Assembly: GCA_904066235.2 (NCBI GenBank) | Contig: CAJFCV020000001.1 | Coordinates: 1,302,001-1,366,000 of the forward strand | Length of the DNA: 64,000 bases | Direction: 5' to 3' | From: Bursaphelenchus xylophilus | Taxonomy: Eukaryota > Nematoda > Chromadorea > Rhabditida > Aphelenchoididae | In this document: positions 25,321 through 60,055 of the stretch, piece after piece | Position numbering within the stretch: position 1 is the stretch's first letter | Layout of the letters: the number at the start of each line of letters is the position of its first letter | Program-made: the position numbers and the translations under genes | Notes under the pieces: model-generated | Database searches by the model: none | The model's input: the letters and a program-made list of their open reading frames with translations, nothing else | What the model was told of the DNA's origin: nothing

Positions 25321-25714
25321 AAAGTCGAACAAATATCGATTCAAATGTATTTTAATTCATGATGTACCATCTAAAATACGGTTCTGATTTCTTTATTCAA
25401 ATCAAAAAAGTCAAAAACTATTTTTTCGAGATTTTCTTGAAAATTTCAGTCAATAGTGACGTCATTAATACAGAAAAATTAGAGAGTATGCTTTTGGAGA
25501 GACCACACAGAAAAAGCGTAAATTCCCCAGCCAAAAAGGAAAGGGTGGATCAGAGGTAAGCTGGCTCTTTCATTCTATCTTCGGATTAATTTCCCAAGTT
25601 AAAGGTTAGCTTGAGATTCCAGCTCCTGAAAAGTGTGGCTGAACAAGAAAATTTTGGAAAGTTTGACTAAACAGTCGAACAAATATTGATTCAAATGTAT
25701 TTTAATTCATGATA
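25321..25714. repeat. Diverged 5S/SL unit from which the 5S gene is deleted
   Basis: Starts in the 3' tail of an SL hairpin (AAAGTCGAAC), follows the usual unit to GTCAAAAAC, then jumps directly to TATTTTTTCGAGATTTTC. That removes the 5S gene and its 5' flank (about 170 bp). The rest of the divergent spacer and the SL gene are present. The spacer's TGACGTCA is followed by TTAATAC, as in the oldest units. Confidence 0.8.
25583..25680 (+). ncRNA. Spliced-leader (SL1-variant) RNA, diverged copy
   Basis: Same 22-nt leader and GTTAGC donor as the array copies, then the Sm-type site AAATTTTGGAA. The 3' hairpin is changed to GTTTGACT-AAAC-AGTCGAAC, but the G substitution still pairs (T.G), so the fold is kept. 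This is the copy whose unit lost its 5S gene. Confidence 0.8.
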
Positions 25715-27594: not shown

Positions 27595-27692
27595 GGATTA
27601 ATTTCCCAAGTTAAAGGTTAGCTTGAGATTCCAGCTCCTGAAAAGTGTGGCTGAACAAGAAAATTTTGGAAAGTTTGACTAAAAAGTCGAAC
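27595..27692 (+). ncRNA. Spliced-leader (SL1-variant) RNA
   Basis: Complete copy: leader, GTTAGC donor, Sm-type site and 3' hairpin GTTTGACT-AAAA-AGTCGAAC (one T.G pair). Preceded by the usual spacer. A 2.2-kb insertion begins 57 bp after the hairpin. Confidence 0.85.
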
Positions 27693-28639: not shown

Positions 28640-28679
28640 CCAGAATGGAGGGGTCCCGCAGGGACCCCCGACATTCTGG
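28640..28679. repeat. GNA-triloop hairpin 5
   Basis: Outer arms CCAGAATG / CATTCTGG and inner arms GGGGTCCC / GGGACCCC close a GCA triloop; 16 paired positions with a small internal bulge. Confidence 0.85.
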
Positions 28680-31706: not shown

Positions 31707-31767
31707 GGATTAATTTCCCAAGTTAAAGGTTAGCTTGAGATTCCAGCTCCTGAAAAGTGTGGCTGAA
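31707..31767 (+). ncRNA. Spliced-leader RNA, truncated by assembly gap
   Basis: The first 61 bp of the SL gene (leader, donor, second stem) up to the run of Ns. It is identical to the start of the copy at 32345. Confidence 0.75.
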
Positions 31768-31777
31768 NNNNNNNNNN
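31768..31777. other. Assembly gap (10 N)
   Basis: Ten unknown bases joining two contigs, flanked by the direct duplication described for 31140-32405. Confidence 0.99.
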
Positions 31778-32344: not shown

Positions 32345-32442
32345 GGATTAATTTCCCAAGTTAAAGGTTAGCTTGAGATTCCAGCTCCTGAAAAGTGTGG
32401 CTGAACAAGAAAATTTTGGAAAGTTTGACTAAAAAGTCGAAC
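32345..32442 (+). ncRNA. Spliced-leader (SL1-variant) RNA
   Basis: Complete 98-nt copy with GAACAAGAAAATTTTGG before the Sm site (array copies have GAAAAAGAAAATTTTGG) and a hairpin AGTCGAAC arm, so it is intermediate between the old units and the homogeneous array. Confidence 0.85.
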
Positions 32443-32648: not shown

Positions 32649-32875
32649 ACTCCCTTCCCTTTCCACTTTTGATTCCTTTCCCTGCAATTCCACCCAGTCC
32701 ACGGCCGGGGCTACTTTTTCGAGATTTTCTTGAAAATTTCAGTCAATAATGACGTCACTAACACAGAAAAATTAGAGATTGTGTTTTTGGAGAGACCACA
32801 CAGAAATAGCGTAAATTCCCCAGCCAAAAAGGAAAGGGTGGATCAGAGGTAAGCTGGCTCTTTCATTCTATCTTC

Positions 32876-32973
32876 GGATTAATTTCCCAAGTTAAAGGTT
32901 AGCTTGAGATTCCAGCTCCTGAAAAGTGTGGCTGAAAAAGAAAATTTTGGAAAGTTTGACTAAAAAGTCAAAC
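32876..32973 (+). ncRNA. Spliced-leader (SL1-variant) RNA
   Basis: 98 nt. The leader at 32876-32897 starts GGATTAATTTCCC and ends AAAG at the GTTAGC donor. Leader and intron can pair as CAAGTTAA / TTAGCTTG, placing the splice site in the loop, as in C. elegans SL1 RNA. The Sm-type site AAATTTTGGAA lies at ~32942-32952. The 3' hairpin GTTTGACT-AAAA-AGTCAAAC closes the RNA at 32954-32973. Confidence 0.88.
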
Positions 32974-33062
32974 AAATATCAATTCAAACGTATTTTAATT
33001 CATGATATACCATCTAAAATACGGTTCTGATTTTTTTATTCAAATCAAAAAAAGTCAAAAAC

Positions 33063-33180
33063 GCGTACGCCACTTGAGATTCCAAGGACGTCTCCGATCC
33101 AAGTACTAATCAAGCGCACCGTTGCTTAACTTGCCAGATCGGACGGGATGGCGTGCTTTCAACGGGCTATGGGCGTACAC
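33063..33180 (-). rRNA. 5S ribosomal RNA, first copy of the exact 531-bp series
   Basis: Copy n=0. Internal control regions are intact and terminal sequences pair. The T-rich 3' flank (GTTTTTGACTTTTTTGATTTG on the sense strand) supplies the Pol III terminator. All later copies in the series appear identical through the 118-bp gene. Confidence 0.98.
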
Positions 33181-33407
33181 ACTCCCTTCCCTTTCCACTT
33201 TTGATTCCTTTCCCTGCAATTCCACCCAGTCCACGGCCGGGGCTACTTTTTCGAGATTTTCTTGAAAATTTCAGTCAATAATGACGTCACTAACACAGAA
33301 AAATTAGAGATTGTGTTTTTGGAGAGACCACACAGAAATAGCGTAAATTCCCCAGCCAAAAAGGAAAGGGTGGATCAGAGGTAAGCTGGCTCTTTCATTC
33401 TATCTTC
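33181..33407. promoter_or_regulatory. Divergent 5S / SL RNA promoter spacer (representative)
   Basis: 227 bp between a 5S 5' end and an SL start. From the 5S side: CTCCCTTCCCTTTCCACTTT (conserved also at the isolated 5S gene), CCACCCAGTCCACGGCC, the 8-bp palindrome TGACGTCA at 33282-33289, then TTCCCCAGCCAAAAAGGAAA about 75-50 bp before the SL start, where a snRNA-type proximal sequence element would be expected. The same spacer recurs every 531 bp. Confidence 0.6.
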
Positions 33408-33505
33408 GGATTAATTTCCCAAGTTAAAGGTTAGCTTGAGATTCCAGCTCCTGAAAAGTGTGGCTGAAAAAGAAAATTTTGGAAAGTTTGACTAAAAAGT
33501 CAAAC
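33408..33505 (+). ncRNA. Spliced-leader (SL1-variant) RNA, first copy of the exact series
   Basis: Copy n=0. The leader differs from canonical SL1 at positions 3, 10, 19 and 20 (T to A, A to T, T to A, G to A) and keeps the TTAATT.CCCAAGTT core. The GT donor directly follows position 22. Length, Sm-type site, 3' hairpin and location beside 5S all fit an SL RNA. The capped leader would be trans-spliced to the 5' ends of mRNAs. Confidence 0.88.
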
Positions 33506-36500
33506 AAATATCAATTCAAACGTATTTTAATTCATGATATACCATCTAAAATACGGTTCTGATTTCTTTATTCAAATCAAAAAAGTCAAAAACGCGTACG
33601 CCACTTGAGATTCCAAGGACGTCTCCGATCCAAGTACTAATCAAGCGCACCGTTGCTTAACTTGCCAGATCGGACGGGATGGCGTGCTTTCAACGGGCTA
33701 TGGGCGTACACACTCCCTTCCCTTTCCACTTTTGATTCCTTTCCCTGCAATTCCACCCAGTCCACGGCCGGGGCTACTTTTTCGAGATTTTCTTGAAAAT
33801 TTCAGTCAATAATGACGTCACTAACACAGAAAAATTAGAGATTGTGTTTTTGGAGAGACCACACAGAAATAGCGTAAATTCCCCAGCCAAAAAGGAAAGG
33901 GTGGATCAGAGGTAAGCTGGCTCTTTCATTCTATCTTCGGATTAATTTCCCAAGTTAAAGGTTAGCTTGAGATTCCAGCTCCTGAAAAGTGTGGCTGAAA
34001 AAGAAAATTTTGGAAAGTTTGACTAAAAAGTCAAACAAATATCAATTCAAACGTATTTTAATTCATGATATACCATCTAAAATACGGTTCTGATTTCTTT
34101 ATTCAAATCAAAAAAGTCAAAAACGCGTACGCCACTTGAGATTCCAAGGACGTCTCCGATCCAAGTACTAATCAAGCGCACCGTTGCTTAACTTGCCAGA
34201 TCGGACGGGATGGCGTGCTTTCAACGGGCTATGGGCGTACACACTCCCTTCCCTTTCCACTTTTGATTCCTTTCCCTGCAATTCCACCCAGTCCACGGCC
34301 GGGGCTACTTTTTCGAGATTTTCTTGAAAATTTCAGTCAATAATGACGTCACTAACACAGAAAAATTAGAGATTGTGTTTTTGGAGAGACCACACAGAAA
34401 TAGCGTAAATTCCCCAGCCAAAAAGGAAAGGGTGGATCAGAGGTAAGCTGGCTCTTTCATTCTATCTTCGGATTAATTTCCCAAGTTAAAGGTTAGCTTG
34501 AGATTCCAGCTCCTGAAAAGTGTGGCTGAAAAAGAAAATTTTGGAAAGTTTGACTAAAAAGTCAAACAAATATCAATTCAAACGTATTTTAATTCATGAT
34601 ATACCATCTAAAATACGGTTCTGATTTCTTTATTCAAATCAAAAAAGTCAAAAACGCGTACGCCACTTGAGATTCCAAGGACGTCTCCGATCCAAGTACT
34701 AATCAAGCGCACCGTTGCTTAACTTGCCAGATCGGACGGGATGGCGTGCTTTCAACGGGCTATGGGCGTACACACTCCCTTCCCTTTCCACTTTTGATTC
34801 CTTTCCCTGCAATTCCACCCAGTCCACGGCCGGGGCTACTTTTTCGAGATTTTCTTGAAAATTTCAGTCAATAATGACGTCACTAACACAGAAAAATTAG
34901 AGATTGTGTTTTTGGAGAGACCACACAGAAATAGCGTAAATTCCCCAGCCAAAAAGGAAAGGGTGGATCAGAGGTAAGCTGGCTCTTTCATTCTATCTTC
35001 GGATTAATTTCCCAAGTTAAAGGTTAGCTTGAGATTCCAGCTCCTGAAAAGTGTGGCTGAAAAAGAAAATTTTGGAAAGTTTGACTAAAAAGTCAAACAA
35101 ATATCAATTCAAACGTATTTTAATTCATGATATACCATCTAAAATACGGTTCTGATTTCTTTATTCAAATCAAAAAAGTCAAAAACGCGTACGCCACTTG
35201 AGATTCCAAGGACGTCTCCGATCCAAGTACTAATCAAGCGCACCGTTGCTTAACTTGCCAGATCGGACGGGATGGCGTGCTTTCAACGGGCTATGGGCGT
35301 ACACACTCCCTTCCCTTTCCACTTTTGATTCCTTTCCCTGCAATTCCACCCAGTCCACGGCCGGGGCTACTTTTTCGAGATTTTCTTGAAAATTTCAGTC
35401 AATAATGACGTCACTAACACAGAAAAATTAGAGATTGTGTTTTTGGAGAGACCACACAGAAATAGCGTAAATTCCCCAGCCAAAAAGGAAAGGGTGGATC
35501 AGAGGTAAGCTGGCTCTTTCATTCTATCTTCGGATTAATTTCCCAAGTTAAAGGTTAGCTTGAGATTCCAGCTCCTGAAAAGTGTGGCTGAAAAAGAAAA
35601 TTTTGGAAAGTTTGACTAAAAAGTCAAACAAATATCAATTCAAACGTATTTTAATTCATGATATACCATCTAAAATACGGTTCTGATTTCTTTATTCAAA
35701 TCAAAAAAGTCAAAAACGCGTACGCCACTTGAGATTCCAAGGACGTCTCCGATCCAAGTACTAATCAAGCGCACCGTTGCTTAACTTGCCAGATCGGACG
35801 GGATGGCGTGCTTTCAACGGGCTATGGGCGTACACACTCCCTTCCCTTTCCACTTTTGATTCCTTTCCCTGCAATTCCACCCAGTCCACGGCCGGGGCTA
35901 CTTTTTCGAGATTTTCTTGAAAATTTCAGTCAATAATGACGTCACTAACACAGAAAAATTAGAGATTGTGTTTTTGGAGAGACCACACAGAAATAGCGTA
36001 AATTCCCCAGCCAAAAAGGAAAGGGTGGATCAGAGGTAAGCTGGCTCTTTCATTCTATCTTCGGATTAATTTCCCAAGTTAAAGGTTAGCTTGAGATTCC
36101 AGCTCCTGAAAAGTGTGGCTGAAAAAGAAAATTTTGGAAAGTTTGACTAAAAAGTCAAACAAATATCAATTCAAACGTATTTTAATTCATGATATACCAT
36201 CTAAAATACGGTTCTGATTTCTTTATTCAAATCAAAAAAGTCAAAAACGCGTACGCCACTTGAGATTCCAAGGACGTCTCCGATCCAAGTACTAATCAAG
36301 CGCACCGTTGCTTAACTTGCCAGATCGGACGGGATGGCGTGCTTTCAACGGGCTATGGGCGTACACACTCCCTTCCCTTTCCACTTTTGATTCCTTTCCC
36401 TGCAATTCCACCCAGTCCACGGCCGGGGCTACTTTTTCGAGATTTTCTTGAAAATTTCAGTCAATAATGACGTCACTAACACAGAAAAATTAGAGATTGT

Positions 36501-39500
36501 GTTTTTGGAGAGACCACACAGAAATAGCGTAAATTCCCCAGCCAAAAAGGAAAGGGTGGATCAGAGGTAAGCTGGCTCTTTCATTCTATCTTCGGATTAA
36601 TTTCCCAAGTTAAAGGTTAGCTTGAGATTCCAGCTCCTGAAAAGTGTGGCTGAAAAAGAAAATTTTGGAAAGTTTGACTAAAAAGTCAAACAAATATCAA
36701 TTCAAACGTATTTTAATTCATGATATACCATCTAAAATACGGTTCTGATTTCTTTATTCAAATCAAAAAAGTCAAAAACGCGTACGCCACTTGAGATTCC
36801 AAGGACGTCTCCGATCCAAGTACTAATCAAGCGCACCGTTGCTTAACTTGCCAGATCGGACGGGATGGCGTGCTTTCAACGGGCTATGGGCGTACACACT
36901 CCCTTCCCTTTCCACTTTTGATTCCTTTCCCTGCAATTCCACCCAGTCCACGGCCGGGGCTACTTTTTCGAGATTTTCTTGAAAATTTCAGTCAATAATG
37001 ACGTCACTAACACAGAAAAATTAGAGATTGTGTTTTTGGAGAGACCACACAGAAATAGCGTAAATTCCCCAGCCAAAAAGGAAAGGGTGGATCAGAGGTA
37101 AGCTGGCTCTTTCATTCTATCTTCGGATTAATTTCCCAAGTTAAAGGTTAGCTTGAGATTCCAGCTCCTGAAAAGTGTGGCTGAAAAAGAAAATTTTGGA
37201 AAGTTTGACTAAAAAGTCAAACAAATATCAATTCAAACGTATTTTAATTCATGATATACCATCTAAAATACGGTTCTGATTTCTTTATTCAAATCAAAAA
37301 AGTCAAAAACGCGTACGCCACTTGAGATTCCAAGGACGTCTCCGATCCAAGTACTAATCAAGCGCACCGTTGCTTAACTTGCCAGATCGGACGGGATGGC
37401 GTGCTTTCAACGGGCTATGGGCGTACACACTCCCTTCCCTTTCCACTTTTGATTCCTTTCCCTGCAATTCCACCCAGTCCACGGCCGGGGCTACTTTTTC
37501 GAGATTTTCTTGAAAATTTCAGTCAATAATGACGTCACTAACACAGAAAAATTAGAGATTGTGTTTTTGGAGAGACCACACAGAAATAGCGTAAATTCCC
37601 CAGCCAAAAAGGAAAGGGTGGATCAGAGGTAAGCTGGCTCTTTCATTCTATCTTCGGATTAATTTCCCAAGTTAAAGGTTAGCTTGAGATTCCAGCTCCT
37701 GAAAAGTGTGGCTGAAAAAGAAAATTTTGGAAAGTTTGACTAAAAAGTCAAACAAATATCAATTCAAACGTATTTTAATTCATGATATACCATCTAAAAT
37801 ACGGTTCTGATTTCTTTATTCAAATCAAAAAAGTCAAAAACGCGTACGCCACTTGAGATTCCAAGGACGTCTCCGATCCAAGTACTAATCAAGCGCACCG
37901 TTGCTTAACTTGCCAGATCGGACGGGATGGCGTGCTTTCAACGGGCTATGGGCGTACACACTCCCTTCCCTTTCCACTTTTGATTCCTTTCCCTGCAATT
38001 CCACCCAGTCCACGGCCGGGGCTACTTTTTCGAGATTTTCTTGAAAATTTCAGTCAATAATGACGTCACTAACACAGAAAAATTAGAGATTGTGTTTTTG
38101 GAGAGACCACACAGAAATAGCGTAAATTCCCCAGCCAAAAAGGAAAGGGTGGATCAGAGGTAAGCTGGCTCTTTCATTCTATCTTCGGATTAATTTCCCA
38201 AGTTAAAGGTTAGCTTGAGATTCCAGCTCCTGAAAAGTGTGGCTGAAAAAGAAAATTTTGGAAAGTTTGACTAAAAAGTCAAACAAATATCAATTCAAAC
38301 GTATTTTAATTCATGATATACCATCTAAAATACGGTTCTGATTTCTTTATTCAAATCAAAAAAGTCAAAAACGCGTACGCCACTTGAGATTCCAAGGACG
38401 TCTCCGATCCAAGTACTAATCAAGCGCACCGTTGCTTAACTTGCCAGATCGGACGGGATGGCGTGCTTTCAACGGGCTATGGGCGTACACACTCCCTTCC
38501 CTTTCCACTTTTGATTCCTTTCCCTGCAATTCCACCCAGTCCACGGCCGGGGCTACTTTTTCGAGATTTTCTTGAAAATTTCAGTCAATAATGACGTCAC
38601 TAACACAGAAAAATTAGAGATTGTGTTTTTGGAGAGACCACACAGAAATAGCGTAAATTCCCCAGCCAAAAAGGAAAGGGTGGATCAGAGGTAAGCTGGC
38701 TCTTTCATTCTATCTTCGGATTAATTTCCCAAGTTAAAGGTTAGCTTGAGATTCCAGCTCCTGAAAAGTGTGGCTGAAAAAGAAAATTTTGGAAAGTTTG
38801 ACTAAAAAGTCAAACAAATATCAATTCAAACGTATTTTAATTCATGATATACCATCTAAAATACGGTTCTGATTTCTTTATTCAAATCAAAAAAGTCAAA
38901 AACGCGTACGCCACTTGAGATTCCAAGGACGTCTCCGATCCAAGTACTAATCAAGCGCACCGTTGCTTAACTTGCCAGATCGGACGGGATGGCGTGCTTT
39001 CAACGGGCTATGGGCGTACACACTCCCTTCCCTTTCCACTTTTGATTCCTTTCCCTGCAATTCCACCCAGTCCACGGCCGGGGCTACTTTTTCGAGATTT
39101 TCTTGAAAATTTCAGTCAATAATGACGTCACTAACACAGAAAAATTAGAGATTGTGTTTTTGGAGAGACCACACAGAAATAGCGTAAATTCCCCAGCCAA
39201 AAAGGAAAGGGTGGATCAGAGGTAAGCTGGCTCTTTCATTCTATCTTCGGATTAATTTCCCAAGTTAAAGGTTAGCTTGAGATTCCAGCTCCTGAAAAGT
39301 GTGGCTGAAAAAGAAAATTTTGGAAAGTTTGACTAAAAAGTCAAACAAATGTCAATTCAAACGTATTTTAATTCATGATATACCATCTAAAATACGGTTC
39401 TGATTTCTTTATTCAAATCAAAAAAGTCAAAAACGCGTACGCCACTTGAGATTCCAAGGACGTCTCCGATCCAAGTACTAATCAAGCGCACCGTTGCTTA

Positions 39501-42500
39501 ACTTGCCAGATCGGACGGGATGGCGTGCTTTCAACGGGCTATGGGCGTACACACTCCCTTCCCTTTCCACTTTTGATTCCTTTCCCTGCAATTCCACCCA
39601 GTCCACGGCCGGGGCTACTTTTTCGAGATTTTCTTGAAAATTTCAGTCAATAATGACGTCACTAACACAGAAAAATTAGAGATTGTGTTTTTGGAGAGAC
39701 CACACAGAAATAGCGTAAATTCCCCAGCCAAAAAGGAAAGGGTGGATCAGAGGTAAGCTGGCTCTTTCATTCTATCTTCGGATTAATTTCCCAAGTTAAA
39801 GGTTAGCTTGAGATTCCAGCTCCTGAAAAGTGTGGCTGAAAAAGAAAATTTTGGAAAGTTTGACTAAAAAGTCAAACAAATGTCAATTCAAACGTATTTT
39901 AATTCATGATATACCATCTAAAATACGGTTCTGATTTCTTTATTCAAATCAAAAAAGTCAAAAACGCGTACGCCACTTGAGATTCCAAGGACGTCTCCGA
40001 TCCAAGTACTAATCAAGCGCACCGTTGCTTAACTTGCCAGATCGGACGGGATGGCGTGCTTTCAACGGGCTATGGGCGTACACACTCCCTTCCCTTTCCA
40101 CTTTTGATTCCTTTCCCTGCAATTCCACCCAGTCCACGGCCGGGGCTACTTTTTCGAGATTTTCTTGAAAATTTCAGTCAATAATGACGTCACTAACACA
40201 GAAAAATTAGAGATTGTGTTTTTGGAGAGACCACACAGAAATAGCGTAAATTCCCCAGCCAAAAAGGAAAGGGTGGATCAGAGGTAAGCTGGCTCTTTCA
40301 TTCTATCTTCGGATTAATTTCCCAAGTTAAAGGTTAGCTTGAGATTCCAGCTCCTGAAAAGTGTGGCTGAAAAAGAAAATTTTGGAAAGTTTGACTAAAA
40401 AGTCAAACAAATGTCAATTCAAACGTATTTTAATTCATGATATACCATCTAAAATACGGTTCTGATTTCTTTATTCAAATCAAAAAAGTCAAAAACGCGT
40501 ACGCCACTTGAGATTCCAAGGACGTCTCCGATCCAAGTACTAATCAAGCGCACCGTTGCTTAACTTGCCAGATCGGACGGGATGGCGTGCTTTCAACGGG
40601 CTATGGGCGTACACACTCCCTTCCCTTTCCACTTTTGATTCCTTTCCCTGCAATTCCACCCAGTCCACGGCCGGGGCTACTTTTTCGAGATTTTCTTGAA
40701 AATTTCAGTCAATAATGACGTCACTAACACAGAAAAATTAGAGATTGTGTTTTTGGAGAGACCACACAGAAATAGCGTAAATTCCCCAGCCAAAAAGGAA
40801 AGGGTGGATCAGAGGTAAGCTGGCTCTTTCATTCTATCTTCGGATTAATTTCCCAAGTTAAAGGTTAGCTTGAGATTCCAGCTCCTGAAAAGTGTGGCTG
40901 AAAAAGAAAATTTTGGAAAGTTTGACTAAAAAGTCAAACAAATGTCAATTCAAACGTATTTTAATTCATGATATACCATCTAAAATACGGTTCTGATTTC
41001 TTTATTCAAATCAAAAAAGTCAAAAACGCGTACGCCACTTGAGATTCCAAGGACGTCTCCGATCCAAGTACTAATCAAGCGCACCGTTGCTTAACTTGCC
41101 AGATCGGACGGGATGGCGTGCTTTCAACGGGCTATGGGCGTACACACTCCCTTCCCTTTCCACTTTTGATTCCTTTCCCTGCAATTCCACCCAGTCCACG
41201 GCCGGGGCTACTTTTTCGAGATTTTCTTGAAAATTTCAGTCAATAATGACGTCACTAACACAGAAAAATTAGAGATTGTGTTTTTGGAGAGACCACACAG
41301 AAATAGCGTAAATTCCCCAGCCAAAAAGGAAAGGGTGGATCAGAGGTAAGCTGGCTCTTTCATTCTATCTTCGGATTAATTTCCCAAGTTAAAGGTTAGC
41401 TTGAGATTCCAGCTCCTGAAAAGTGTGGCTGAAAAAGAAAATTTTGGAAAGTTTGACTAAAAAGTCAAACAAATGTCAATTCAAACGTATTTTAATTCAT
41501 GATATACCATCTAAAATACGGTTCTGATTTCTTTATTCAAATCAAAAAAGTCAAAAACGCGTACGCCACTTGAGATTCCAAGGACGTCTCCGATCCAAGT
41601 ACTAATCAAGCGCACCGTTGCTTAACTTGCCAGATCGGACGGGATGGCGTGCTTTCAACGGGCTATGGGCGTACACACTCCCTTCCCTTTCCACTTTTGA
41701 TTCCTTTCCCTGCAATTCCACCCAGTCCACGGCCGGGGCTACTTTTTCGAGATTTTCTTGAAAATTTCAGTCAATAATGACGTCACTAACACAGAAAAAT
41801 TAGAGATTGTGTTTTTGGAGAGACCACACAGAAATAGCGTAAATTCCCCAGCCAAAAAGGAAAGGGTGGATCAGAGGTAAGCTGGCTCTTTCATTCTATC
41901 TTCGGATTAATTTCCCAAGTTAAAGGTTAGCTTGAGATTCCAGCTCCTGAAAAGTGTGGCTGAAAAAGAAAATTTTGGAAAGTTTGACTAAAAAGTCAAA
42001 CAAATGTCAATTCAAACGTATTTTAATTCATGATATACCATCTAAAATACGGTTCTGATTTCTTTATTCAAATCAAAAAAGTCAAAAACGCGTACGCCAC
42101 TTGAGATTCCAAGGACGTCTCCGATCCAAGTACTAATCAAGCGCACCGTTGCTTAACTTGCCAGATCGGACGGGATGGCGTGCTTTCAACGGGCTATGGG
42201 CGTACACACTCCCTTCCCTTTCCACTTTTGATTCCTTTCCCTGCAATTCCACCCAGTCCACGGCCGGGGCTACTTTTTCGAGATTTTCTTGAAAATTTCA
42301 GTCAATAATGACGTCACTAACACAGAAAAAATAGAGATTGTGTTTTTGGAGAGACCACACAGAAATAGCGTAAATTCCCCAGCCAAAAAGGAAAGGGTGG
42401 ATCAGAGGTAAGCTGGCTCTTTCATTCTATCTTCGGATTAATTTCCCAAGTTAAAGGTTAGCTTGAGATTCCAGCTCCTGAAAAGTGTGGCTGAAAAAGA

Positions 42501-45500
42501 AAATTTTGGAAAGTTTGACTAAAAAGTCAAACAAATGTCAATTCAAACGTATTTTAATTCATGATATACCATCTAAAATACGGTTCTGATTTCTTTATTC
42601 AAATCAAAAAAGTCAAAAACGCGTACGCCACTTGAGATTCCAAGGACGTCTCCGATCCAAGTACTAATCAAGCGCACCGTTGCTTAACTTGCCAGATCGG
42701 ACGGGATGGCGTGCTTTCAACGGGCTATGGGCGTACACACTCCCTTCCCTTTCCACTTTTGATTCCTTTCCCTGCAATTCCACCCAGTCCACGGCCGGGG
42801 CTACTTTTTCGAGATTTTCTTGAAAATTTCAGTCAATAATGACGTCACTAACACAGAAAAAATAGAGATTGTGTTTTTGGAGAGACCACACAGAAATAGC
42901 GTAAATTCCCCAGCCAAAAAGGAAAGGGTGGATCAGAGGTAAGCTGGCTCTTTCATTCTATCTTCGGATTAATTTCCCAAGTTAAAGGTTAGCTTGAGAT
43001 TCCAGCTCCTGAAAAGTGTGGCTGAAAAAGAAAATTTTGGAAAGTTTGACTAAAAAGTCAAACAAATGTCAATTCAAACGTATTTTAATTCATGATATAC
43101 CATCTAAAATACGGTTCTGATTTCTTTATTCAAATCAAAAAAGTCAAAAACGCGTACGCCACTTGAGATTCCAAGGACGTCTCCGATCCAAGTACTAATC
43201 AAGCGCACCGTTGCTTAACTTGCCAGATCGGACGGGATGGCGTGCTTTCAACGGGCTATGGGCGTACACACTCCCTTCCCTTTCCACTTTTGATTCCTTT
43301 CCCTGCAATTCCACCCAGTCCACGGCCGGGGCTACTTTTTCGAGATTTTCTTGAAAATTTCAGTCAATAATGACGTCACTAACACAGAAAAAATAGAGAT
43401 TGTGTTTTTGGAGAGACCACACAGAAATAGCGTAAATTCCCCAGCCAAAAAGGAAAGGGTGGATCAGAGGTAAGCTGGCTCTTTCATTCTATCTTCGGAT
43501 TAATTTCCCAAGTTAAAGGTTAGCTTGAGATTCCAGCTCCTGAAAAGTGTGGCTGAAAAAGAAAATTTTGGAAAGTTTGACTAAAAAGTCAAACAAATGT
43601 CAATTCAAACGTATTTTAATTCATGATATACCATCTAAAATACGGTTCTGATTTCTTTATTCAAATCAAAAAAGTCAAAAACGCGTACGCCACTTGAGAT
43701 TCCAAGGACGTCTCCGATCCAAGTACTAATCAAGCGCACCGTTGCTTAACTTGCCAGATCGGACGGGATGGCGTGCTTTCAACGGGCTATGGGCGTACAC
43801 ACTCCCTTCCCTTTCCACTTTTGATTCCTTTCCCTGCAATTCCACCCAGTCCACGGCCGGGGCTACTTTTTCGAGATTTTCTTGAAAATTTCAGTCAATA
43901 ATGACGTCACTAACACAGAAAAAATAGAGATTGTGTTTTTGGAGAGACCACACAGAAATAGCGTAAATTCCCCAGCCAAAAAGGAAAGGGTGGATCAGAG
44001 GTAAGCTGGCTCTTTCATTCTATCTTCGGATTAATTTCCCAAGTTAAAGGTTAGCTTGAGATTCCAGCTCCTGAAAAGTGTGGCTGAAAAAGAAAATTTT
44101 GGAAAGTTTGACTAAAAAGTCAAACAAATGTCAATTCAAACGTATTTTAATTCATGATATACCATCTAAAATACGGTTCTGATTTCTTTATTCAAATCAA
44201 AAAAGTCAAAAACGCGTACGCCACTTGAGATTCCAAGGACGTCTCCGATCCAAGTACTAATCAAGCGCACCGTTGCTTAACTTGCCAGATCGGACGGGAT
44301 GGCGTGCTTTCAACGGGCTATGGGCGTACACACTCCCTTCCCTTTCCACTTTTGATTCCTTTCCCTGCAATTCCACCCAGTCCACGGCCGGGGCTACTTT
44401 TTCGAGATTTTCTTGAAAATTTCAGTCAATAATGACGTCACTAACACAGAAAAAATAGAGATTGTGTTTTTGGAGAGACCACACAGAAATAGCGTAAATT
44501 CCCCAGCCAAAAAGGAAAGGGTGGATCAGAGGTAAGCTGGCTCTTTCATTCTATCTTCGGATTAATTTCCCAAGTTAAAGGTTAGCTTGAGATTCCAGCT
44601 CCTGAAAAGTGTGGCTGAAAAAGAAAATTTTGGAAAGTTTGACTAAAAAGTCAAACAAATGTCAATTCAAACGTATTTTAATTCATGATATACCATCTAA
44701 AATACGGTTCTGATTTCTTTATTCAAATCAAAAAAGTCAAAAACGCGTACGCCACTTGAGATTCCAAGGACGTCTCCGATCCAAGTACTAATCAAGCGCA
44801 CCGTTGCTTAACTTGCCAGATCGGACGGGATGGCGTGCTTTCAACGGGCTATGGGCGTACACACTCCCTTCCCTTTCCACTTTTGATTCCTTTCCCTGCA
44901 ATTCCACCCAGTCCACGGCCGGGGCTACTTTTTCGAGATTTTCTTGAAAATTTCAGTCAATAATGACGTCACTAACACAGAAAAAATAGAGATTGTGTTT
45001 TTGGAGAGACCACACAGAAATAGCGTAAATTCCCCAGCCAAAAAGGAAAGGGTGGATCAGAGGTAAGCTGGCTCTTTCATTCTATCTTCGGATTAATTTC
45101 CCAAGTTAAAGGTTAGCTTGAGATTCCAGCTCCTGAAAAGTGTGGCTGAAAAAGAAAATTTTGGAAAGTTTGACTAAAAAGTCAAACAAATGTCAATTCA
45201 AACGTATTTTAATTCATGATATACCATCTAAAATACGGTTCTGATTTCTTTATTCAAATCAAAAAAGTCAAAAACGCGTACGCCACTTGAGATTCCAAGG
45301 ACGTCTCCGATCCAAGTACTAATCAAGCGCACCGTTGCTTAACTTGCCAGATCGGACGGGATGGCGTGCTTTCAACGGGCTATGGGCGTACACACTCCCT
45401 TCCCTTTCCACTTTTGATTCCTTTCCCTGCAATTCCACCCAGTCCACGGCCGGGGCTACTTTTTCGAGATTTTCTTGAAAATTTCAGTCAATAATGACGT

Positions 45501-48500: not shown

Positions 48501-51500
48501 AGTACTAATCAAGCGCACCGTTGCTTAACTTGCCAGATCGGACGGGATGGCGTGCTTTCAACGGGCTATGGGCGTACACACTCCCTTCCCTTTCCACTTT
48601 TGATTCCTTTCCCTGCAATTCCACCCAGTCCACGGCCGGGGCTACTTTTTCGAGATTTTCTTGAAAATTTCAGTCAATAATGACGTCACTAACACAGAAA
48701 AAATAGAGATTGTGTTTTTGGAGAGACCACACAGAAATAGCGTAAATTCCCCAGCCAAAAAGGAAAGGGTGGATCAGAGGTAAGCTGGCTCTTTCATTCT
48801 ATCTTCGGATTAATTTCCCAAGTTAAAGGTTAGCTTGAGATTCCAGCTCCTGAAAAGTGTGGCTGAAAAAGAAAATTTTGGAAAGTTTGACTAAAAAGTC
48901 AAACAAATGTCAATTCAAACGTATTTTAATTCATGATATACCATCTAAAATACGGTTCTGATTTCTTTATTCAAATCAAAAAAGTCAAAAACGCGTACGC
49001 CACTTGAGATTCCAAGGACGTCTCCGATCCAAGTACTAATCAAGCGCACCGTTGCTTAACTTGCCAGATCGGACGGGATGGCGTGCTTTCAACGGGCTAT
49101 GGGCGTACACACTCCCTTCCCTTTCCACTTTTGATTCCTTTCCCTGCAATTCCACCCAGTCCACGGCCGGGGCTACTTTTTCGAGATTTTCTTGAAAATT
49201 TCAGTCAATAATGACGTCACTAACACAGAAAAAATAGAGATTGTGTTTTTGGAGAGACCACACAGAAATAGCGTAAATTCCCCAGCCAAAAAGGAAAGGG
49301 TGGATCAGAGGTAAGCTGGCTCTTTCATTCTATCTTCGGATTAATTTCCCAAGTTAAAGGTTAGCTTGAGATTCCAGCTCCTGAAAAGTGTGGCTGAAAA
49401 AGAAAATTTTGGAAAGTTTGACTAAAAAGTCAAACAAATGTCAATTCAAACGTATTTTAATTCATGATATACCATCTAAAATACGGTTCTGATTTCTTTA
49501 TTCAAATCAAAAAAGTCAAAAACGCGTACGCCACTTGAGATTCCAAGGACGTCTCCGATCCAAGTACTAATCAAGCGCACCGTTGCTTAACTTGCCAGAT
49601 CGGACGGGATGGCGTGCTTTCAACGGGCTATGGGCGTACACACTCCCTTCCCTTTCCACTTTTGATTCCTTTCCCTGCAATTCCACCCAGTCCACGGCCG
49701 GGGCTACTTTTTCGAGATTTTCTTGAAAATTTCAGTCAATAATGACGTCACTAACACAGAAAAAATAGAGATTGTGTTTTTGGAGAGACCACACAGAAAT
49801 AGCGTAAATTCCCCAGCCAAAAAGGAAAGGGTGGATCAGAGGTAAGCTGGCTCTTTCATTCTATCTTCGGATTAATTTCCCAAGTTAAAGGTTAGCTTGA
49901 GATTCCAGCTCCTGAAAAGTGTGGCTGAAAAAGAAAATTTTGGAAAGTTTGACTAAAAAGTCAAACAAATGTCAATTCAAACGTATTTTAATTCATGATA
50001 TACCATCTAAAATACGGTTCTGATTTCTTTATTCAAATCAAAAAAGTCAAAAACGCGTACGCCACTTGAGATTCCAAGGACGTCTCCGATCCAAGTACTA
50101 ATCAAGCGCACCGTTGCTTAACTTGCCAGATCGGACGGGATGGCGTGCTTTCAACGGGCTATGGGCGTACACACTCCCTTCCCTTTCCACTTTTGATTCC
50201 TTTCCCTGCAATTCCACCCAGTCCACGGCCGGGGCTACTTTTTCGAGATTTTCTTGAAAATTTCAGTCAATAATGACGTCACTAACACAGAAAAAATAGA
50301 GATTGTGTTTTTGGAGAGACCACACAGAAATAGCGTAAATTCCCCAGCCAAAAAGGAAAGGGTGGATCAGAGGTAAGCTGGCTCTTTCATTCTATCTTCG
50401 GATTAATTTCCCAAGTTAAAGGTTAGCTTGAGATTCCAGCTCCTGAAAAGTGTGGCTGAAAAAGAAAATTTTGGAAAGTTTGACTAAAAAGTCAAACAAA
50501 TGTCAATTCAAACGTATTTTAATTCATGATATACCATCTAAAATACGGTTCTGATTTCTTTATTCAAATCAAAAAAGTCAAAAACGCGTACGCCACTTGA
50601 GATTCCAAGGACGTCTCCGATCCAAGTACTAATCAAGCGCACCGTTGCTTAACTTGCCAGATCGGACGGGATGGCGTGCTTTCAACGGGCTATGGGCGTA
50701 CACACTCCCTTCCCTTTCCACTTTTGATTCCTTTCCCTGCAATTCCACCCAGTCCACGGCCGGGGCTACTTTTTCGAGATTTTCTTGAAAATTTCAGTCA
50801 ATAATGACGTCACTAACACAGAAAAAATAGAGATTGTGTTTTTGGAGAGACCACACAGAAATAGCGTAAATTCCCCAGCCAAAAAGGAAAGGGTGGATCA
50901 GAGGTAAGCTGGCTCTTTCATTCTATCTTCGGATTAATTTCCCAAGTTAAAGGTTAGCTTGAGATTCCAGCTCCTGAAAAGTGTGGCTGAAAAAGAAAAT
51001 TTTGGAAAGTTTGACTAAAAAGTCAAACAAATGTCAATTCAAACGTATTTTAATTCATGATATACCATCTAAAATACGGTTCTGATTTCTTTATTCAAAT
51101 CAAAAAAGTCAAAAACGCGTACGCCACTTGAGATTCCAAGGACGTCTCCGATCCAAGTACTAATCAAGCGCACCGTTGCTTAACTTGCCAGATCGGACGG
51201 GATGGCGTGCTTTCAACGGGCTATGGGCGTACACACTCCCTTCCCTTTCCACTTTTGATTCCTTTCCCTGCAATTCCACCCAGTCCACGGCCGGGGCTAC
51301 TTTTTCGAGATTTTCTTGAAAATTTCAGTCAATAATGACGTCACTAACACAGAAAAAATAGAGATTGTGTTTTTGGAGAGACCACACAGAAATAGCGTAA
51401 ATTCCCCAGCCAAAAAGGAAAGGGTGGATCAGAGGTAAGCTGGCTCTTTCATTCTATCTTCGGATTAATTTCCCAAGTTAAAGGTTAGCTTGAGATTCCA

Positions 51501-54500
51501 GCTCCTGAAAAGTGTGGCTGAAAAAGAAAATTTTGGAAAGTTTGACTAAAAAGTCAAACAAATGTCAATTCAAACGTATTTTAATTCATGATATACCATC
51601 TAAAATACGGTTCTGATTTCTTTATTCAAATCAAAAAAGTCAAAAACGCGTACGCCACTTGAGATTCCAAGGACGTCTCCGATCCAAGTACTAATCAAGC
51701 GCACCGTTGCTTAACTTGCCAGATCGGACGGGATGGCGTGCTTTCAACGGGCTATGGGCGTACACACTCCCTTCCCTTTCCACTTTTGATTCCTTTCCCT
51801 GCAATTCCACCCAGTCCACGGCCGGGGCTACTTTTTCGAGATTTTCTTGAAAATTTCAGTCAATAATGACGTCACTAACACAGAAAAAATAGAGATTGTG
51901 TTTTTGGAGAGACCACACAGAAATAGCGTAAATTCCCCAGCCAAAAAGGAAAGGGTGGATCAGAGGTAAGCTGGCTCTTTCATTCTATCTTCGGATTAAT
52001 TTCCCAAGTTAAAGGTTAGCTTGAGATTCCAGCTCCTGAAAAGTGTGGCTGAAAAAGAAAATTTTGGAAAGTTTGACTAAAAAGTCAAACAAATGTCAAT
52101 TCAAACGTATTTTAATTCATGATATACCATCTAAAATACGGTTCTGATTTCTTTATTCAAATCAAAAAAGTCAAAAACGCGTACGCCACTTGAGATTCCA
52201 AGGACGTCTCCGATCCAAGTACTAATCAAGCGCACCGTTGCTTAACTTGCCAGATCGGACGGGATGGCGTGCTTTCAACGGGCTATGGGCGTACACACTC
52301 CCTTCCCTTTCCACTTTTGATTCCTTTCCCTGCAATTCCACCCAGTCCACGGCCGGGGCTACTTTTTCGAGATTTTCTTGAAAATTTCAGTCAATAATGA
52401 CGTCACTAACACAGAAAAAATAGAGATTGTGTTTTTGGAGAGACCACACAGAAATAGCGTAAATTCCCCAGCCAAAAAGGAAAGGGTGGATCAGAGGTAA
52501 GCTGGCTCTTTCATTCTATCTTCGGATTAATTTCCCAAGTTAAAGGTTAGCTTGAGATTCCAGCTCCTGAAAAGTGTGGCTGAAAAAGAAAATTTTGGAA
52601 AGTTTGACTAAAAAGTCAAACAAATGTCAATTCAAACGTATTTTAATTCATGATATACCATCTAAAATACGGTTCTGATTTCTTTATTCAAATCAAAAAA
52701 GTCAAAAACGCGTACGCCACTTGAGATTCCAAGGACGTCTCCGATCCAAGTACTAATCAAGCGCACCGTTGCTTAACTTGCCAGATCGGACGGGATGGCG
52801 TGCTTTCAACGGGCTATGGGCGTACACACTCCCTTCCCTTTCCACTTTTGATTCCTTTCCCTGCAATTCCACCCAGTCCACGGCCGGGGCTACTTTTTCG
52901 AGATTTTCTTGAAAATTTCAGTCAATAATGACGTCACTAACACAGAAAAAATAGAGATTGTGTTTTTGGAGAGACCACACAGAAATAGCGTAAATTCCCC
53001 AGCCAAAAAGGAAAGGGTGGATCAGAGGTAAGCTGGCTCTTTCATTCTATCTTCGGATTAATTTCCCAAGTTAAAGGTTAGCTTGAGATTCCAGCTCCTG
53101 AAAAGTGTGGCTGAAAAAGAAAATTTTGGAAAGTTTGACTAAAAAGTCAAACAAATGTCAATTCAAACGTATTTTAATTCATGATATACCATCTAAAATA
53201 CGGTTCTGATTTCTTTATTCAAATCAAAAAAGTCAAAAACGCGTACGCCACTTGAGATTCCAAGGACGTCTCCGATCCAAGTACTAATCAAGCGCACCGT
53301 TGCTTAACTTGCCAGATCGGACGGGATGGCGTGCTTTCAACGGGCTATGGGCGTACACACTCCCTTCCCTTTCCACTTTTGATTCCTTTCCCTGCAATTC
53401 CACCCAGTCCACGGCCGGGGCTACTTTTTCGAGATTTTCTTGAAAATTTCAGTCAATAATGACGTCACTAACACAGAAAAAATAGAGATTGTGTTTTTGG
53501 AGAGACCACACAGAAATAGCGTAAATTCCCCAGCCAAAAAGGAAAGGGTGGATCAGAGGTAAGCTGGCTCTTTCATTCTATCTTCGGATTAATTTCCCAA
53601 GTTAAAGGTTAGCTTGAGATTCCAGCTCCTGAAAAGTGTGGCTGAAAAAGAAAATTTTGGAAAGTTTGACTAAAAAGTCAAACAAATGTCAATTCAAACG
53701 TATTTTAATTCATGATATACCATCTAAAATACGGTTCTGATTTCTTTATTCAAATCAAAAAAGTCAAAAACGCGTACGCCACTTGAGATTCCAAGGACGT
53801 CTCCGATCCAAGTACTAATCAAGCGCACCGTTGCTTAACTTGCCAGATCGGACGGGATGGCGTGCTTTCAACGGGCTATGGGCGTACACACTCCCTTCCC
53901 TTTCCACTTTTGATTCCTTTCCCTGCAATTCCACCCAGTCCACGGCCGGGGCTACTTTTTCGAGATTTTCTTGAAAATTTCAGTCAATAATGACGTCACT
54001 AACACAGAAAAAATAGAGATTGTGTTTTTGGAGAGACCACACAGAAATAGCGTAAATTCCCCAGCCAAAAAGGAAAGGGTGGATCAGAGGTAAGCTGGCT
54101 CTTTCATTCTATCTTCGGATTAATTTCCCAAGTTAAAGGTTAGCTTGAGATTCCAGCTCCTGAAAAGTGTGGCTGAAAAAGAAAATTTTGGAAAGTTTGA
54201 CTAAAAAGTCAAACAAATGTCAATTCAAACGTATTTTAATTCATGATATACCATCTAAAATACGGTTCTGATTTCTTTATTCAAATCAAAAAAGTCAAAA
54301 ACGCGTACGCCACTTGAGATTCCAAGGACGTCTCCGATCCAAGTACTAATCAAGCGCACCGTTGCTTAACTTGCCAGATCGGACGGGATGGCGTGCTTTC
54401 AACGGGCTATGGGCGTACACACTCCCTTCCCTTTCCACTTTTGATTCCTTTCCCTGCAATTCCACCCAGTCCACGGCCGGGGCTACTTTTTCGAGATTTT

Positions 54501-57500
54501 CTTGAAAATTTCAGTCAATAATGACGTCACTAACACAGAAAAAATAGAGATTGTGTTTTTGGAGAGACCACACAGAAATAGCGTAAATTCCCCAGCCAAA
54601 AAGGAAAGGGTGGATCAGAGGTAAGCTGGCTCTTTCATTCTATCTTCGGATTAATTTCCCAAGTTAAAGGTTAGCTTGAGATTCCAGCTCCTGAAAAGTG
54701 TGGCTGAAAAAGAAAATTTTGGAAAGTTTGACTAAAAAGTCAAACAAATGTCAATTCAAACGTATTTTAATTCATGATATACCATCTAAAATACGGTTCT
54801 GATTTCTTTATTCAAATCAAAAAAGTCAAAAACGCGTACGCCACTTGAGATTCCAAGGACGTCTCCGATCCAAGTACTAATCAAGCGCACCGTTGCTTAA
54901 CTTGCCAGATCGGACGGGATGGCGTGCTTTCAACGGGCTATGGGCGTACACACTCCCTTCCCTTTCCACTTTTGATTCCTTTCCCTGCAATTCCACCCAG
55001 TCCACGGCCGGGGCTACTTTTTCGAGATTTTCTTGAAAATTTCAGTCAATAATGACGTCACTAACACAGAAAAAATAGAGATTGTGTTTTTGGAGAGACC
55101 ACACAGAAATAGCGTAAATTCCCCAGCCAAAAAGGAAAGGGTGGATCAGAGGTAAGCTGGCTCTTTCATTCTATCTTCGGATTAATTTCCCAAGTTAAAG
55201 GTTAGCTTGAGATTCCAGCTCCTGAAAAGTGTGGCTGAAAAAGAAAATTTTGGAAAGTTTGACTAAAAAGTCAAACAAATGTCAATTCAAACGTATTTTA
55301 ATTCATGATATACCATCTAAAATACGGTTCTGATTTCTTTATTCAAATCAAAAAAGTCAAAAACGCGTACGCCACTTGAGATTCCAAGGACGTCTCCGAT
55401 CCAAGTACTAATCAAGCGCACCGTTGCTTAACTTGCCAGATCGGACGGGATGGCGTGCTTTCAACGGGCTATGGGCGTACACACTCCCTTCCCTTTCCAC
55501 TTTTGATTCCTTTCCCTGCAATTCCACCCAGTCCACGGCCGGGGCTACTTTTTCGAGATTTTCTTGAAAATTTCAGTCAATAATGACGTCACTAACACAG
55601 AAAAAATAGAGATTGTGTTTTTGGAGAGACCACACAGAAATAGCGTAAATTCCCCAGCCAAAAAGGAAAGGGTGGATCAGAGGTAAGCTGGCTCTTTCAT
55701 TCTATCTTCGGATTAATTTCCCAAGTTAAAGGTTAGCTTGAGATTCCAGCTCCTGAAAAGTGTGGCTGAAAAAGAAAATTTTGGAAAGTTTGACTAAAAA
55801 GTCAAACAAATGTCAATTCAAACGTATTTTAATTCATGATATACCATCTAAAATACGGTTCTGATTTCTTTATTCAAATCAAAAAAGTCAAAAACGCGTA
55901 CGCCACTTGAGATTCCAAGGACGTCTCCGATCCAAGTACTAATCAAGCGCACCGTTGCTTAACTTGCCAGATCGGACGGGATGGCGTGCTTTCAACGGGC
56001 TATGGGCGTACACACTCCCTTCCCTTTCCACTTTTGATTCCTTTCCCTGCAATTCCACCCAGTCCACGGCCGGGGCTACTTTTTCGAGATTTTCTTGAAA
56101 ATTTCAGTCAATAATGACGTCACTAACACAGAAAAAATAGAGATTGTGTTTTTGGAGAGACCACACAGAAATAGCGTAAATTCCCCAGCCAAAAAGGAAA
56201 GGGTGGATCAGAGGTAAGCTGGCTCTTTCATTCTATCTTCGGATTAATTTCCCAAGTTAAAGGTTAGCTTGAGATTCCAGCTCCTGAAAAGTGTGGCTGA
56301 AAAAGAAAATTTTGGAAAGTTTGACTAAAAAGTCAAACAAATGTCAATTCAAACGTATTTTAATTCATGATATACCATCTAAAATACGGTTCTGATTTCT
56401 TTATTCAAATCAAAAAAGTCAAAAACGCGTACGCCACTTGAGATTCCAAGGACGTCTCCGATCCAAGTACTAATCAAGCGCACCGTTGCTTAACTTGCCA
56501 GATCGGACGGGATGGCGTGCTTTCAACGGGCTATGGGCGTACACACTCCCTTCCCTTTCCACTTTTGATTCCTTTCCCTGCAATTCCACCCAGTCCACGG
56601 CCGGGGCTACTTTTTCGAGATTTTCTTGAAAATTTCAGTCAATAATGACGTCACTAACACAGAAAAAATAGAGATTGTGTTTTTGGAGAGACCACACAGA
56701 AATAGCGTAAATTCCCCAGCCAAAAAGGAAAGGGTGGATCAGAGGTAAGCTGGCTCTTTCATTCTATCTTCGGATTAATTTCCCAAGTTAAAGGTTAGCT
56801 TGAGATTCCAGCTCCTGAAAAGTGTGGCTGAAAAAGAAAATTTTGGAAAGTTTGACTAAAAAGTCAAACAAATGTCAATTCAAACGTATTTTAATTCATG
56901 ATATACCATCTAAAATACGGTTCTGATTTCTTTATTCAAATCAAAAAAGTCAAAAACGCGTACGCCACTTGAGATTCCAAGGACGTCTCCGATCCAAGTA
57001 CTAATCAAGCGCACCGTTGCTTAACTTGCCAGATCGGACGGGATGGCGTGCTTTCAACGGGCTATGGGCGTACACACTCCCTTCCCTTTCCACTTTTGAT
57101 TCCTTTCCCTGCAATTCCACCCAGTCCACGGCCGGGGCTACTTTTTCGAGATTTTCTTGAAAATTTCAGTCAATAATGACGTCACTAACACAGAAAAAAT
57201 AGAGATTGTGTTTTTGGAGAGACCACACAGAAATAGCGTAAATTCCCCAGCCAAAAAGGAAAGGGTGGATCAGAGGTAAGCTGGCTCTTTCATTCTATCT
57301 TCGGATTAATTTCCCAAGTTAAAGGTTAGCTTGAGATTCCAGCTCCTGAAAAGTGTGGCTGAAAAAGAAAATTTTGGAAAGTTTGACTAAAAAGTCAAAC
57401 AAATGTCAATTCAAACGTATTTTAATTCATGATATACCATCTAAAATACGGTTCTGATTTCTTTATTCAAATCAAAAAAGTCAAAAACGCGTACGCCACT

Positions 57501-59957
57501 TGAGATTCCAAGGACGTCTCCGATCCAAGTACTAATCAAGCGCACCGTTGCTTAACTTGCCAGATCGGACGGGATGGCGTGCTTTCAACGGGCTATGGGC
57601 GTACACACTCCCTTCCCTTTCCACTTTTGATTCCTTTCCCTGCAATTCCACCCAGTCCACGGCCGGGGCTACTTTTTCGAGATTTTCTTGAAAATTTCAG
57701 TCAATAATGACGTCACTAACACAGAAAAAATAGAGATTGTGTTTTTGGAGAGACCACACAGAAATAGCGTAAATTCCCCAGCCAAAAAGGAAAGGGTGGA
57801 TCAGAGGTAAGCTGGCTCTTTCATTCTATCTTCGGATTAATTTCCCAAGTTAAAGGTTAGCTTGAGATTCCAGCTCCTGAAAAGTGTGGCTGAAAAAGAA
57901 AATTTTGGAAAGTTTGACTAAAAAGTCAAACAAATGTCAATTCAAACGTATTTTAATTCATGATATACCATCTAAAATACGGTTCTGATTTCTTTATTCA
58001 AATCAAAAAAGTCAAAAACGCGTACGCCACTTGAGATTCCAAGGACGTCTCCGATCCAAGTACTAATCAAGCGCACCGTTGCTTAACTTGCCAGATCGGA
58101 CGGGATGGCGTGCTTTCAACGGGCTATGGGCGTACACACTCCCTTCCCTTTCCACTTTTGATTCCTTTCCCTGCAATTCCACCCAGTCCACGGCCGGGGC
58201 TACTTTTTCGAGATTTTCTTGAAAATTTCAGTCAATAATGACGTCACTAACACAGAAAAAATAGAGATTGTGTTTTTGGAGAGACCACACAGAAATAGCG
58301 TAAATTCCCCAGCCAAAAAGGAAAGGGTGGATCAGAGGTAAGCTGGCTCTTTCATTCTATCTTCGGATTAATTTCCCAAGTTAAAGGTTAGCTTGAGATT
58401 CCAGCTCCTGAAAAGTGTGGCTGAAAAAGAAAATTTTGGAAAGTTTGACTAAAAAGTCAAACAAATGTCAATTCAAACGTATTTTAATTCATGATATACC
58501 ATCTAAAATACGGTTCTGATTTCTTTATTCAAATCAAAAAAGTCAAAAACGCGTACGCCACTTGAGATTCCAAGGACGTCTCCGATCCAAGTACTAATCA
58601 AGCGCACCGTTGCTTAACTTGCCAGATCGGACGGGATGGCGTGCTTTCAACGGGCTATGGGCGTACACACTCCCTTCCCTTTCCACTTTTGATTCCTTTC
58701 CCTGCAATTCCACCCAGTCCACGGCCGGGGCTACTTTTTCGAGATTTTCTTGAAAATTTCAGTCAATAATGACGTCACTAACACAGAAAAAATAGAGATT
58801 GTGTTTTTGGAGAGACCACACAGAAATAGCGTAAATTCCCCAGCCAAAAAGGAAAGGGTGGATCAGAGGTAAGCTGGCTCTTTCATTCTATCTTCGGATT
58901 AATTTCCCAAGTTAAAGGTTAGCTTGAGATTCCAGCTCCTGAAAAGTGTGGCTGAAAAAGAAAATTTTGGAAAGTTTGACTAAAAAGTCAAACAAATGTC
59001 AATTCAAACGTATTTTAATTCATGATATACCATCTAAAATACGGTTCTGATTTCTTTATTCAAATCAAAAAAGTCAAAAACGCGTACGCCACTTGAGATT
59101 CCAAGGACGTCTCCGATCCAAGTACTAATCAAGCGCACCGTTGCTTAACTTGCCAGATCGGACGGGATGGCGTGCTTTCAACGGGCTATGGGCGTACACA
59201 CTCCCTTCCCTTTCCACTTTTGATTCCTTTCCCTGCAATTCCACCCAGTCCACGGCCGGGGCTACTTTTTCGAGATTTTCTTGAAAATTTCAGTCAATAA
59301 TGACGTCACTAACACAGAAAAAATAGAGATTGTGTTTTTGGAGAGACCACACAGAAATAGCGTAAATTCCCCAGCCAAAAAGGAAAGGGTGGATCAGAGG
59401 TAAGCTGGCTCTTTCATTCTATCTTCGGATTAATTTCCCAAGTTAAAGGTTAGCTTGAGATTCCAGCTCCTGAAAAGTGTGGCTGAAAAAGAAAATTTTG
59501 GAAAGTTTGACTAAAAAGTCAAACAAATGTCAATTCAAACGTATTTTAATTCATGATATACCATCTAAAATACGGTTCTGATTTCTTTATTCAAATCAAA
59601 AAAGTCAAAAACGCGTACGCCACTTGAGATTCCAAGGACGTCTCCGATCCAAGTACTAATCAAGCGCACCGTTGCTTAACTTGCCAGATCGGACGGGATG
59701 GCGTGCTTTCAACGGGCTATGGGCGTACACACTCCCTTCCCTTTCCACTTTTGATTCCTTTCCCTGCAATTCCACCCAGTCCACGGCCGGGGCTACTTTT
59801 TCGAGATTTTCTTGAAAATTTCAGTCAATAATGACGTCACTAACACAGAAAAAATAGAGATTGTGTTTTTGGAGAGACCACACAGAAATAGCGTAAATTC
59901 CCCAGCCAAAAAGGAAAGGGTGGATCAGAGGTAAGCTGGCTCTTTCATTCTATCTTC

Positions 59958-60055
59958 GGATTAATTTCCCAAGTTAAAGGTTAGCTTGAGATTCCAGCTC
60001 CTGAAAAGTGTGGCTGAAAAAGAAAATTTTGGAAAGTTTGACTAAAAAGTCAAAC
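59958..60055 (+). ncRNA. Spliced-leader (SL1-variant) RNA, last array copy
   Basis: Copy n=50, unchanged in the 98-nt RNA. The flanking base at +102 is G (block II/III type). Confidence 0.88.

Follow-up and report, generated by a model that had tools for sequence, protein, structure and literature searches.

A probable spliced-leader RNA gene family with a divergent leader in a 5S rRNA array of Bursaphelenchus xylophilus

Many nematode messenger RNAs (mRNAs) receive their 5' ends from spliced leaders (SLs). A tandem array in Bursaphelenchus xylophilus, in which an SL-RNA-like gene with a divergent leader is repeated opposite 5S ribosomal RNA (rRNA), raises the question of whether such a gene works and whether it is the main SL1 of its lineage. 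The array lies in a stretch of 64,000 nucleotides (nt), hereafter the window (assembly GCA_904066235.2, contig CAJFCV020000001.1, positions 1,302,001 to 1,366,000), which is part of C1, a contig of 15,101,617 bp; the genome that we searched comprises 78.25 Mb in 8 contigs. We call the SL-RNA-like genes of this array family D. Our results suggest that family D is a real SL RNA gene family, probably a working one, and that it is not the main SL1. The array and the parts of its first unit, including a promoter core resembling a proximal sequence element (PSE), are as follows.

32876..60055, plus strand: family D array, 52 identical 98-nt SL-RNA-like genes, one per 531-bp unit
32816..32821, plus strand: TTCCCC, PSE-like promoter core, starting at -60 relative to the leader
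32876..32897, plus strand: leader, 22 nt, GGATTAATTTCCCAAGTTAAAG
32888..32906, plus strand: predicted stem I, 8 bp, pairing leader positions 13-20 and intron positions +2 to +9
32898..32899, plus strand: putative 5' splice site GT
32913..32934, plus strand: predicted stem II, CAGCU/GGCUG
32942..32952, plus strand: Sm-type site AAATTTTGGAA
32954..32973, plus strand: terminal hairpin, perfect 8 bp, AAAA loop
33062..33180, minus strand: 5S rRNA gene, convergent with the SL gene

The first-pass annotation of this DNA had described a 98-nt plus-strand sequence opposite 5S in every 531-bp repeat, and the array indeed holds 52 exact copies, identical over all 98 nt (52/52). From 32345 to 59958 the copy-to-copy spacing is 531 bp in 51 cases and 532 bp in one. 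In each unit the 5S gene lies on the minus strand, tail to tail with the SL gene; every tandem unit thus pairs a 5S gene with an oppositely oriented SL gene, the organization of a 5S-linked SL array. The exact leader occurs 56 times in the window, always on the plus strand, and four of these occurrences are upstream of the array. There are also 56 matches to 5S, 55 on the minus strand and one on the plus strand at 578; the SL gene of the window closest to this solitary gene (578-696) begins at 25583. As the annotation further stated, the leader is identical to SL1 at 18 of 22 positions, differs from it at positions 3, 10, 19 and 20, and is followed by GT; the Sm-type site and the perfect 8-bp terminal hairpin were recovered at 32942-32952 and 32954-32973. 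The 3' portion of leader D reads ...CCCAAGTTAAAG. A leader exon running immediately into GT within a gene of ~100 nt, and an Sm-type site flanked by stem II and the terminal hairpin, are features of nematode SL RNAs. Among 2000 shuffled units none held a leader within four mismatches of SL1 followed by GT (0/2000), and read-backwards control patterns had no match in the whole genome.

The four copies upstream of the array are as follows.

25583..25680, plus strand: outlying family D SL gene
27595..27692, plus strand: outlying family D SL gene
31707..31767, plus strand: family D SL gene with replaced promoter element, broken off at a 10-N gap (31768-31777)
32345..32442, plus strand: family D SL gene, promoter element replaced

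In three of these four the terminal hairpin contains a U.G pair, and the fourth (31707) runs into the gap. Because of this gap, the size of the array is that of the assembly. In copies 31707 and 32345 a different sequence, common to both, stands in place of the upstream region, including the promoter element. Genome-wide, a search allowing up to three mismatches found 71 exact copies of leader D and two variants, one carrying T at position 3 and the other carrying both this T and a C at 22. All of them are distributed over the two strands of C1 in the interval 1.17-1.61 Mb.

The dispersed copies provide a measure of constraint. We aligned 20 of them (17 outside the window, 3 inside) to an array unit and counted differences in the 17 of 20 with alignable 5S, dropping L078_1606669, W_25583 and W_27595, where 5S was misaligned; when all 20 are kept, 5S seems falsely divergent at 8.4%, whereas BLAST gives 5S matches of 98-100% in 10 of the 10 C1 loci fetched. 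Differences affect 3 of 374 positions in the leader and 18 of 2005 in the 5S gene, and leader D is therefore conserved as well as 5S. The Sm site differs at 1 of 204 positions, the intron part of the SL RNA at 41 of 1290, and the whole SL RNA at 44 of 1664, with 30 of the 44 falling at position 95 (17 copies) and position 62 (13 copies). Outside the gene, differences reach 77/1275 between -75 and -1 (some 35 of them from copy 32345 alone, whose promoter is replaced), 119/1445 in the spacer after the SL gene, and 795/2436 (33%) in the upstream spacer. Judged from these comparisons, the family D gene looks to be under constraint.

Family D is not the only SL-RNA-like family of this genome. The exact SL1 leader, GGTTTAATTACCCAAGTTTGAG, was not found in the genome, but at least six SL-RNA-like families (A to F) were. 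One SL-body pattern had 170 matches, against none for its read-backwards control; as the matches listed were the first of these 170, further families may exist. Family A (leader GGTTTATTAACCCAAGTTTGAG, 20/22 to SL1) has ~50 dispersed genes, mainly on contig C3. Family B (leader GGTTTAATAACCCAAGTTTGAG, 21/22 to SL1, with C at position 17 in some copies) forms an array of 910/911-bp units on C6. Family C (leader GCTATTTATAGCCTAATTTGAG; 23 exact copies in the genome) supplies a second SL gene in 11 of the 11 units of one stretch of that array, L081, in which cmscan places 11 5S and 11 B genes in convergent orientation; stretch L079 has one 5S and three B genes. The region L079-L081 (C6, 4.85 and 5.05-5.07 Mb) is thus a second 5S array, where most of the 910-bp units hold two SL genes, and some longer C6 units (1,937-bp spacing) carry C without a matching B. 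The sequence pattern also marks two putative families of SL RNA genes. Family E, at four C5 loci (L118-L121, 0.90-1.01 Mb), has GCTATATATAGCCTAACTTGAG or near variants followed by GTT, and a TTTTGGA site; its leaders begin GCTATAT and have TACCCCA upstream. Family F, at three C2 loci (L122-L124, 84.4-87.2 kb), has putative A-rich leaders that are unlike SL1 and end in AAAG before GT; a GGAACCCATTCC-type element lies upstream, and GTTCC/GGAAC could pair around the splice site.

Several other sequences resemble these leaders. A degenerate SL gene with leader CGGTTCATTACACAAGTTTGAG lies among the C3 genes (L083:2146). Six pairs of direct repeats resembling long terminal repeats (LTRs), 7.3 or 8.4 kb apart (L054-L063, L065 and L066; C1, C2 and C3), contain the exact 22-nt leader A, then GTT and AATAAA, without an SL RNA body. 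They are of two kinds (~346 and ~214 bp), whose only common stretch is a 37-bp match around leader A, as if two LTR-like elements had each acquired this leader, which may form the beginning of their RNA. Apparent decayed relatives of these repeats occur in L064, L096, L098 and L099. A 20-base pattern had one match in a contig of a Bacteroidales metagenome-assembled genome, which we judged to be due to chance, as it has neither the leader start nor an SL body, and a 23-base junction had no match in viral contigs. Elsewhere in the window, two tandem repeats with units of 180 and 192 bp (28271-29198) stand between the outlying 5S/SL copies, and eIF2alpha exons lie on the minus strand at 16220-16858. 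Apart from one intron, these exons match a B. xylophilus protein at 156 of 156 aligned residues; a search of the assembly for COX1 gave no match.

Comparison of families A to D suggests what is peculiar to the family D RNA. The Sm site and stem II are common to all four, and so is a terminal hairpin, 8-9 bp long and built from differing bases; AAATTTTGGA of the Sm site is invariant in 10 of 10 aligned sequences, and its last A in 9 of 10. The predicted first stem is different. In agreement with the first-pass annotation, the predicted fold of D places the splice site in a loop, here an AGG triloop enclosed by stem I. The Rfam SL1 consensus favours another stem, which pairs G22 and G23 (leader 3-12 with the intron). 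In gap-free register D could form only 3 of its 10 pairs, against 7 for A and 6 for B, and the Rfam gapped alignment breaks 3 of the 10; D thus lacks the stem I of SL1 proper, and its base at position 10 is predicted to disrupt this usual stem. The core pairs of the D stem (15-29, 16-28, 17-27 and 18-26) are possible in A and B too, but D bases 19, 20, 30 and 31 convert mismatches or a G.U pair to Watson-Crick pairs. Relative to its paralogues, stem I of D would have been remodelled, with leader 19-20 and intron +8/+9 extending the helix to 8 bp. When the 37-nt fragment is folded, A and B favour different and weaker pairings (-5.9 versus -8.3 kcal/mol for D). An 8-bp stem I recurs in 194 of 20,000 shuffled introns (~1%), and we regard the predicted stem as suggestive. 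We make no claim of covariation for stem I, since a single lineage change is seen.

In the promoter region, TTCCCC starts at -60 in all of families B, C and D. Among family A promoters, a set of 48 distinct ones within the stretches used for the position table, a looser T[TC][CT]CC starts at -60 in 34. The best place in the D unit for a weight matrix built from these 48 promoters is the expected register; of 59,910 positions on the two strands of the window's first 30 kb, only 0.06% reach this score. D shares with other SL genes a proximal element of the small nuclear RNA (snRNA) type, seen as TTCCCC at -60 and as a matrix peak of negative score. On 14 U1, U2 and U5 upstream regions, the matrix found its best places at -75 to -84 in several and elsewhere in others, with negative scores throughout, and a promoter element common to SL and snRNA genes is only suggestive from these sequences.

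Published primers give some indication of the leaders present on mRNAs. Excerpts of PMC4813143 report that BxATG8 complementary DNA (cDNA) was completed by 5' rapid amplification of cDNA ends, and give an RNA interference primer on BxATG8 as AACCCAAGTTTGAGACCT; the primer table of PMC5751242 contains the same string, in one case labelled as a GFP primer. The genome does not contain the junction CCCAAGTTTGAGACCT of this primer, and BxATG8 mRNA therefore appears to carry a leader of the A or B type (AACCCAAGTTTGAG). Bx-HSP90 was cloned with the SL1 primer, according to an excerpt of PMC3430268, and the 3' end of this primer fits A and B, not D. Searches of the open-licence literature, supplements excluded, for leader D (full string, 12-base 3' end, and a 10-base piece with Bursaphelenchus) gave no nematode paper, as judged by title for the 12-base end. 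A survey from 2023 that dealt with SL2-type leaders beyond Rhabditina, absent from our literature search results, could contain these leaders.

The annotation had been aware of no description of the variant, which holds for the leader string in the literature searched but not for SL1-like genes in 5S repeats: a passage of PMC3164644 described in 2011 25 SL1-like sequences within the same tandem repeats as 5S in B. xylophilus. This is the same species and the same 5S linkage, and some genes of the window were probably included; the passage itself gives no leader sequences, second array or dispersed families. The kind of gene is known; our literature searches found no printed account of leader D, the two-array arrangement or stem I.

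Taken together, we consider it likely that the repeat encodes a functional, probably minor or specialized, nematode SL RNA with a remodelled first stem. The gene anatomy, the promoter element, the array, the low variation and the wider SL repertoire are read from the sequence itself. The element at -60 would drive snRNA-type transcription of an RNA of ~98 nt opposite 5S, Sm proteins would bind AAAUUUUGGAA, which separates stem II from the terminal hairpin, and the spliceosome would join the 22-nt leader D to the 5' ends of a set of mRNAs. Transcription, capping, trans-splicing and the target set of family D are what we infer from these features.

Several observations weigh against this conclusion. 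Identity within the array is no sign of selection, because tandem copies homogenize, and the dispersed copies, all within C1 1.17-1.61 Mb, may exchange by gene conversion. The match of D to Rfam SL1 (RF00198) spans the full model, with the same order of parts, but scores 28.7 bits, far under the gathering threshold of 75 and thus outside SL1 proper, although families A and B are also under it (best 54.5). The score of D under the family A matrix is negative (-16.0), as is that of B (-37.0, despite TTCCCC at -60), and D lacks the TTAACTCC half of the family A promoter. Finally, since leader D, searched with up to three mismatches, was found only on C1 whereas leader A is also found in LTR-like repeats, A rather than D would seem to be the common leader on mRNAs.

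The specialized role could be given a more definite form. Leaders would be split into at least six RNA families, two of whose loci are separate 5S arrays. D would serve exclusively a defined set of genes, either downstream in operons or specific to a stage, and its splice site would be exposed in the rebuilt stem I triloop. This proposal is tentative and we regard it as doubtful; if true, it contradicts the view, printed in a passage of PMC3164644, that Bursaphelenchus appears to have no SL2 trans-splicing.

Family D might instead be a decaying former SL1 locus whose main role passed to A or B, and whose silent or unused copies are kept by homogenization with 5S. This would fit the greater closeness of A and B to SL1, the A/B-type leader indicated on BxATG8 mRNA, the failure to find leader D in the open-licence literature, the loss of the promoter element from two D copies and the C at leader position 22 in one dispersed copy. 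We nevertheless find it unlikely, as the dispersed copies keep the leader and Sm site like 5S while their upstream spacer is 33% different, and the promoter element is retained at -60. The first-pass annotation had proposed that leader D is the main SL1 of the lineage. D is the largest family by copies and has the classic 5S linkage, but other families are nearer SL1, one of them within the second 5S array, the BxATG8 primer reads AACCCAAGTTTGAG, and the Bx-HSP90 primer suits A and B at its 3' end; this proposal was not upheld and is now very improbable. It is hardly credible that family D is an Sm-class RNA derived from an SL RNA, with an snRNA-like or SmY-like role, which retained Sm site, hairpins and promoter and ceased to donate its leader, since a non-donor would be free to change its leader, and the 22-nt leader and the Sm site are the parts of the gene that vary least.

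The functional, probably minor SL RNA that we favour has a counterpart in Caenorhabditis elegans, where the 5S and SL1 genes have opposite orientation. As in family D, the SL RNA gene of that repeat lies in tandem units with 5S, of which an excerpt of PMC1657053 mentions ~110 copies. B. xylophilus differs in the leader (18/22), the remodelled stem I and the 531-bp unit, and in that its genome holds another 5S-SL array whose leaders are different. Diversified SL1-like leaders are also found in other Tylenchina, at least in the passages cited here: Aphelenchus avenae has a table of 12 leaders, with variant SL1 (PMC2825203), and Strongyloides ratti has 19 SL1-like leaders (PMC1657053). Variant SL1 leaders are likewise reported for Heterodera (PMC6362198). 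Leader D matches none of the 12 printed A. avenae leaders, which were seen on mRNAs, whereas D is known from the gene alone.

In Rhabditina there is a division of labour between SL1 and SL2. With two 5S-SL arrays that differ in their leaders, paired SL genes in some units, and further families in one genome, whether Tylenchina have a division of labour of their own is now a direct question. There is also a practical side, as SL1 primers may miss some leaders in B. xylophilus, the pine wood nematode, an economically important plant parasite.

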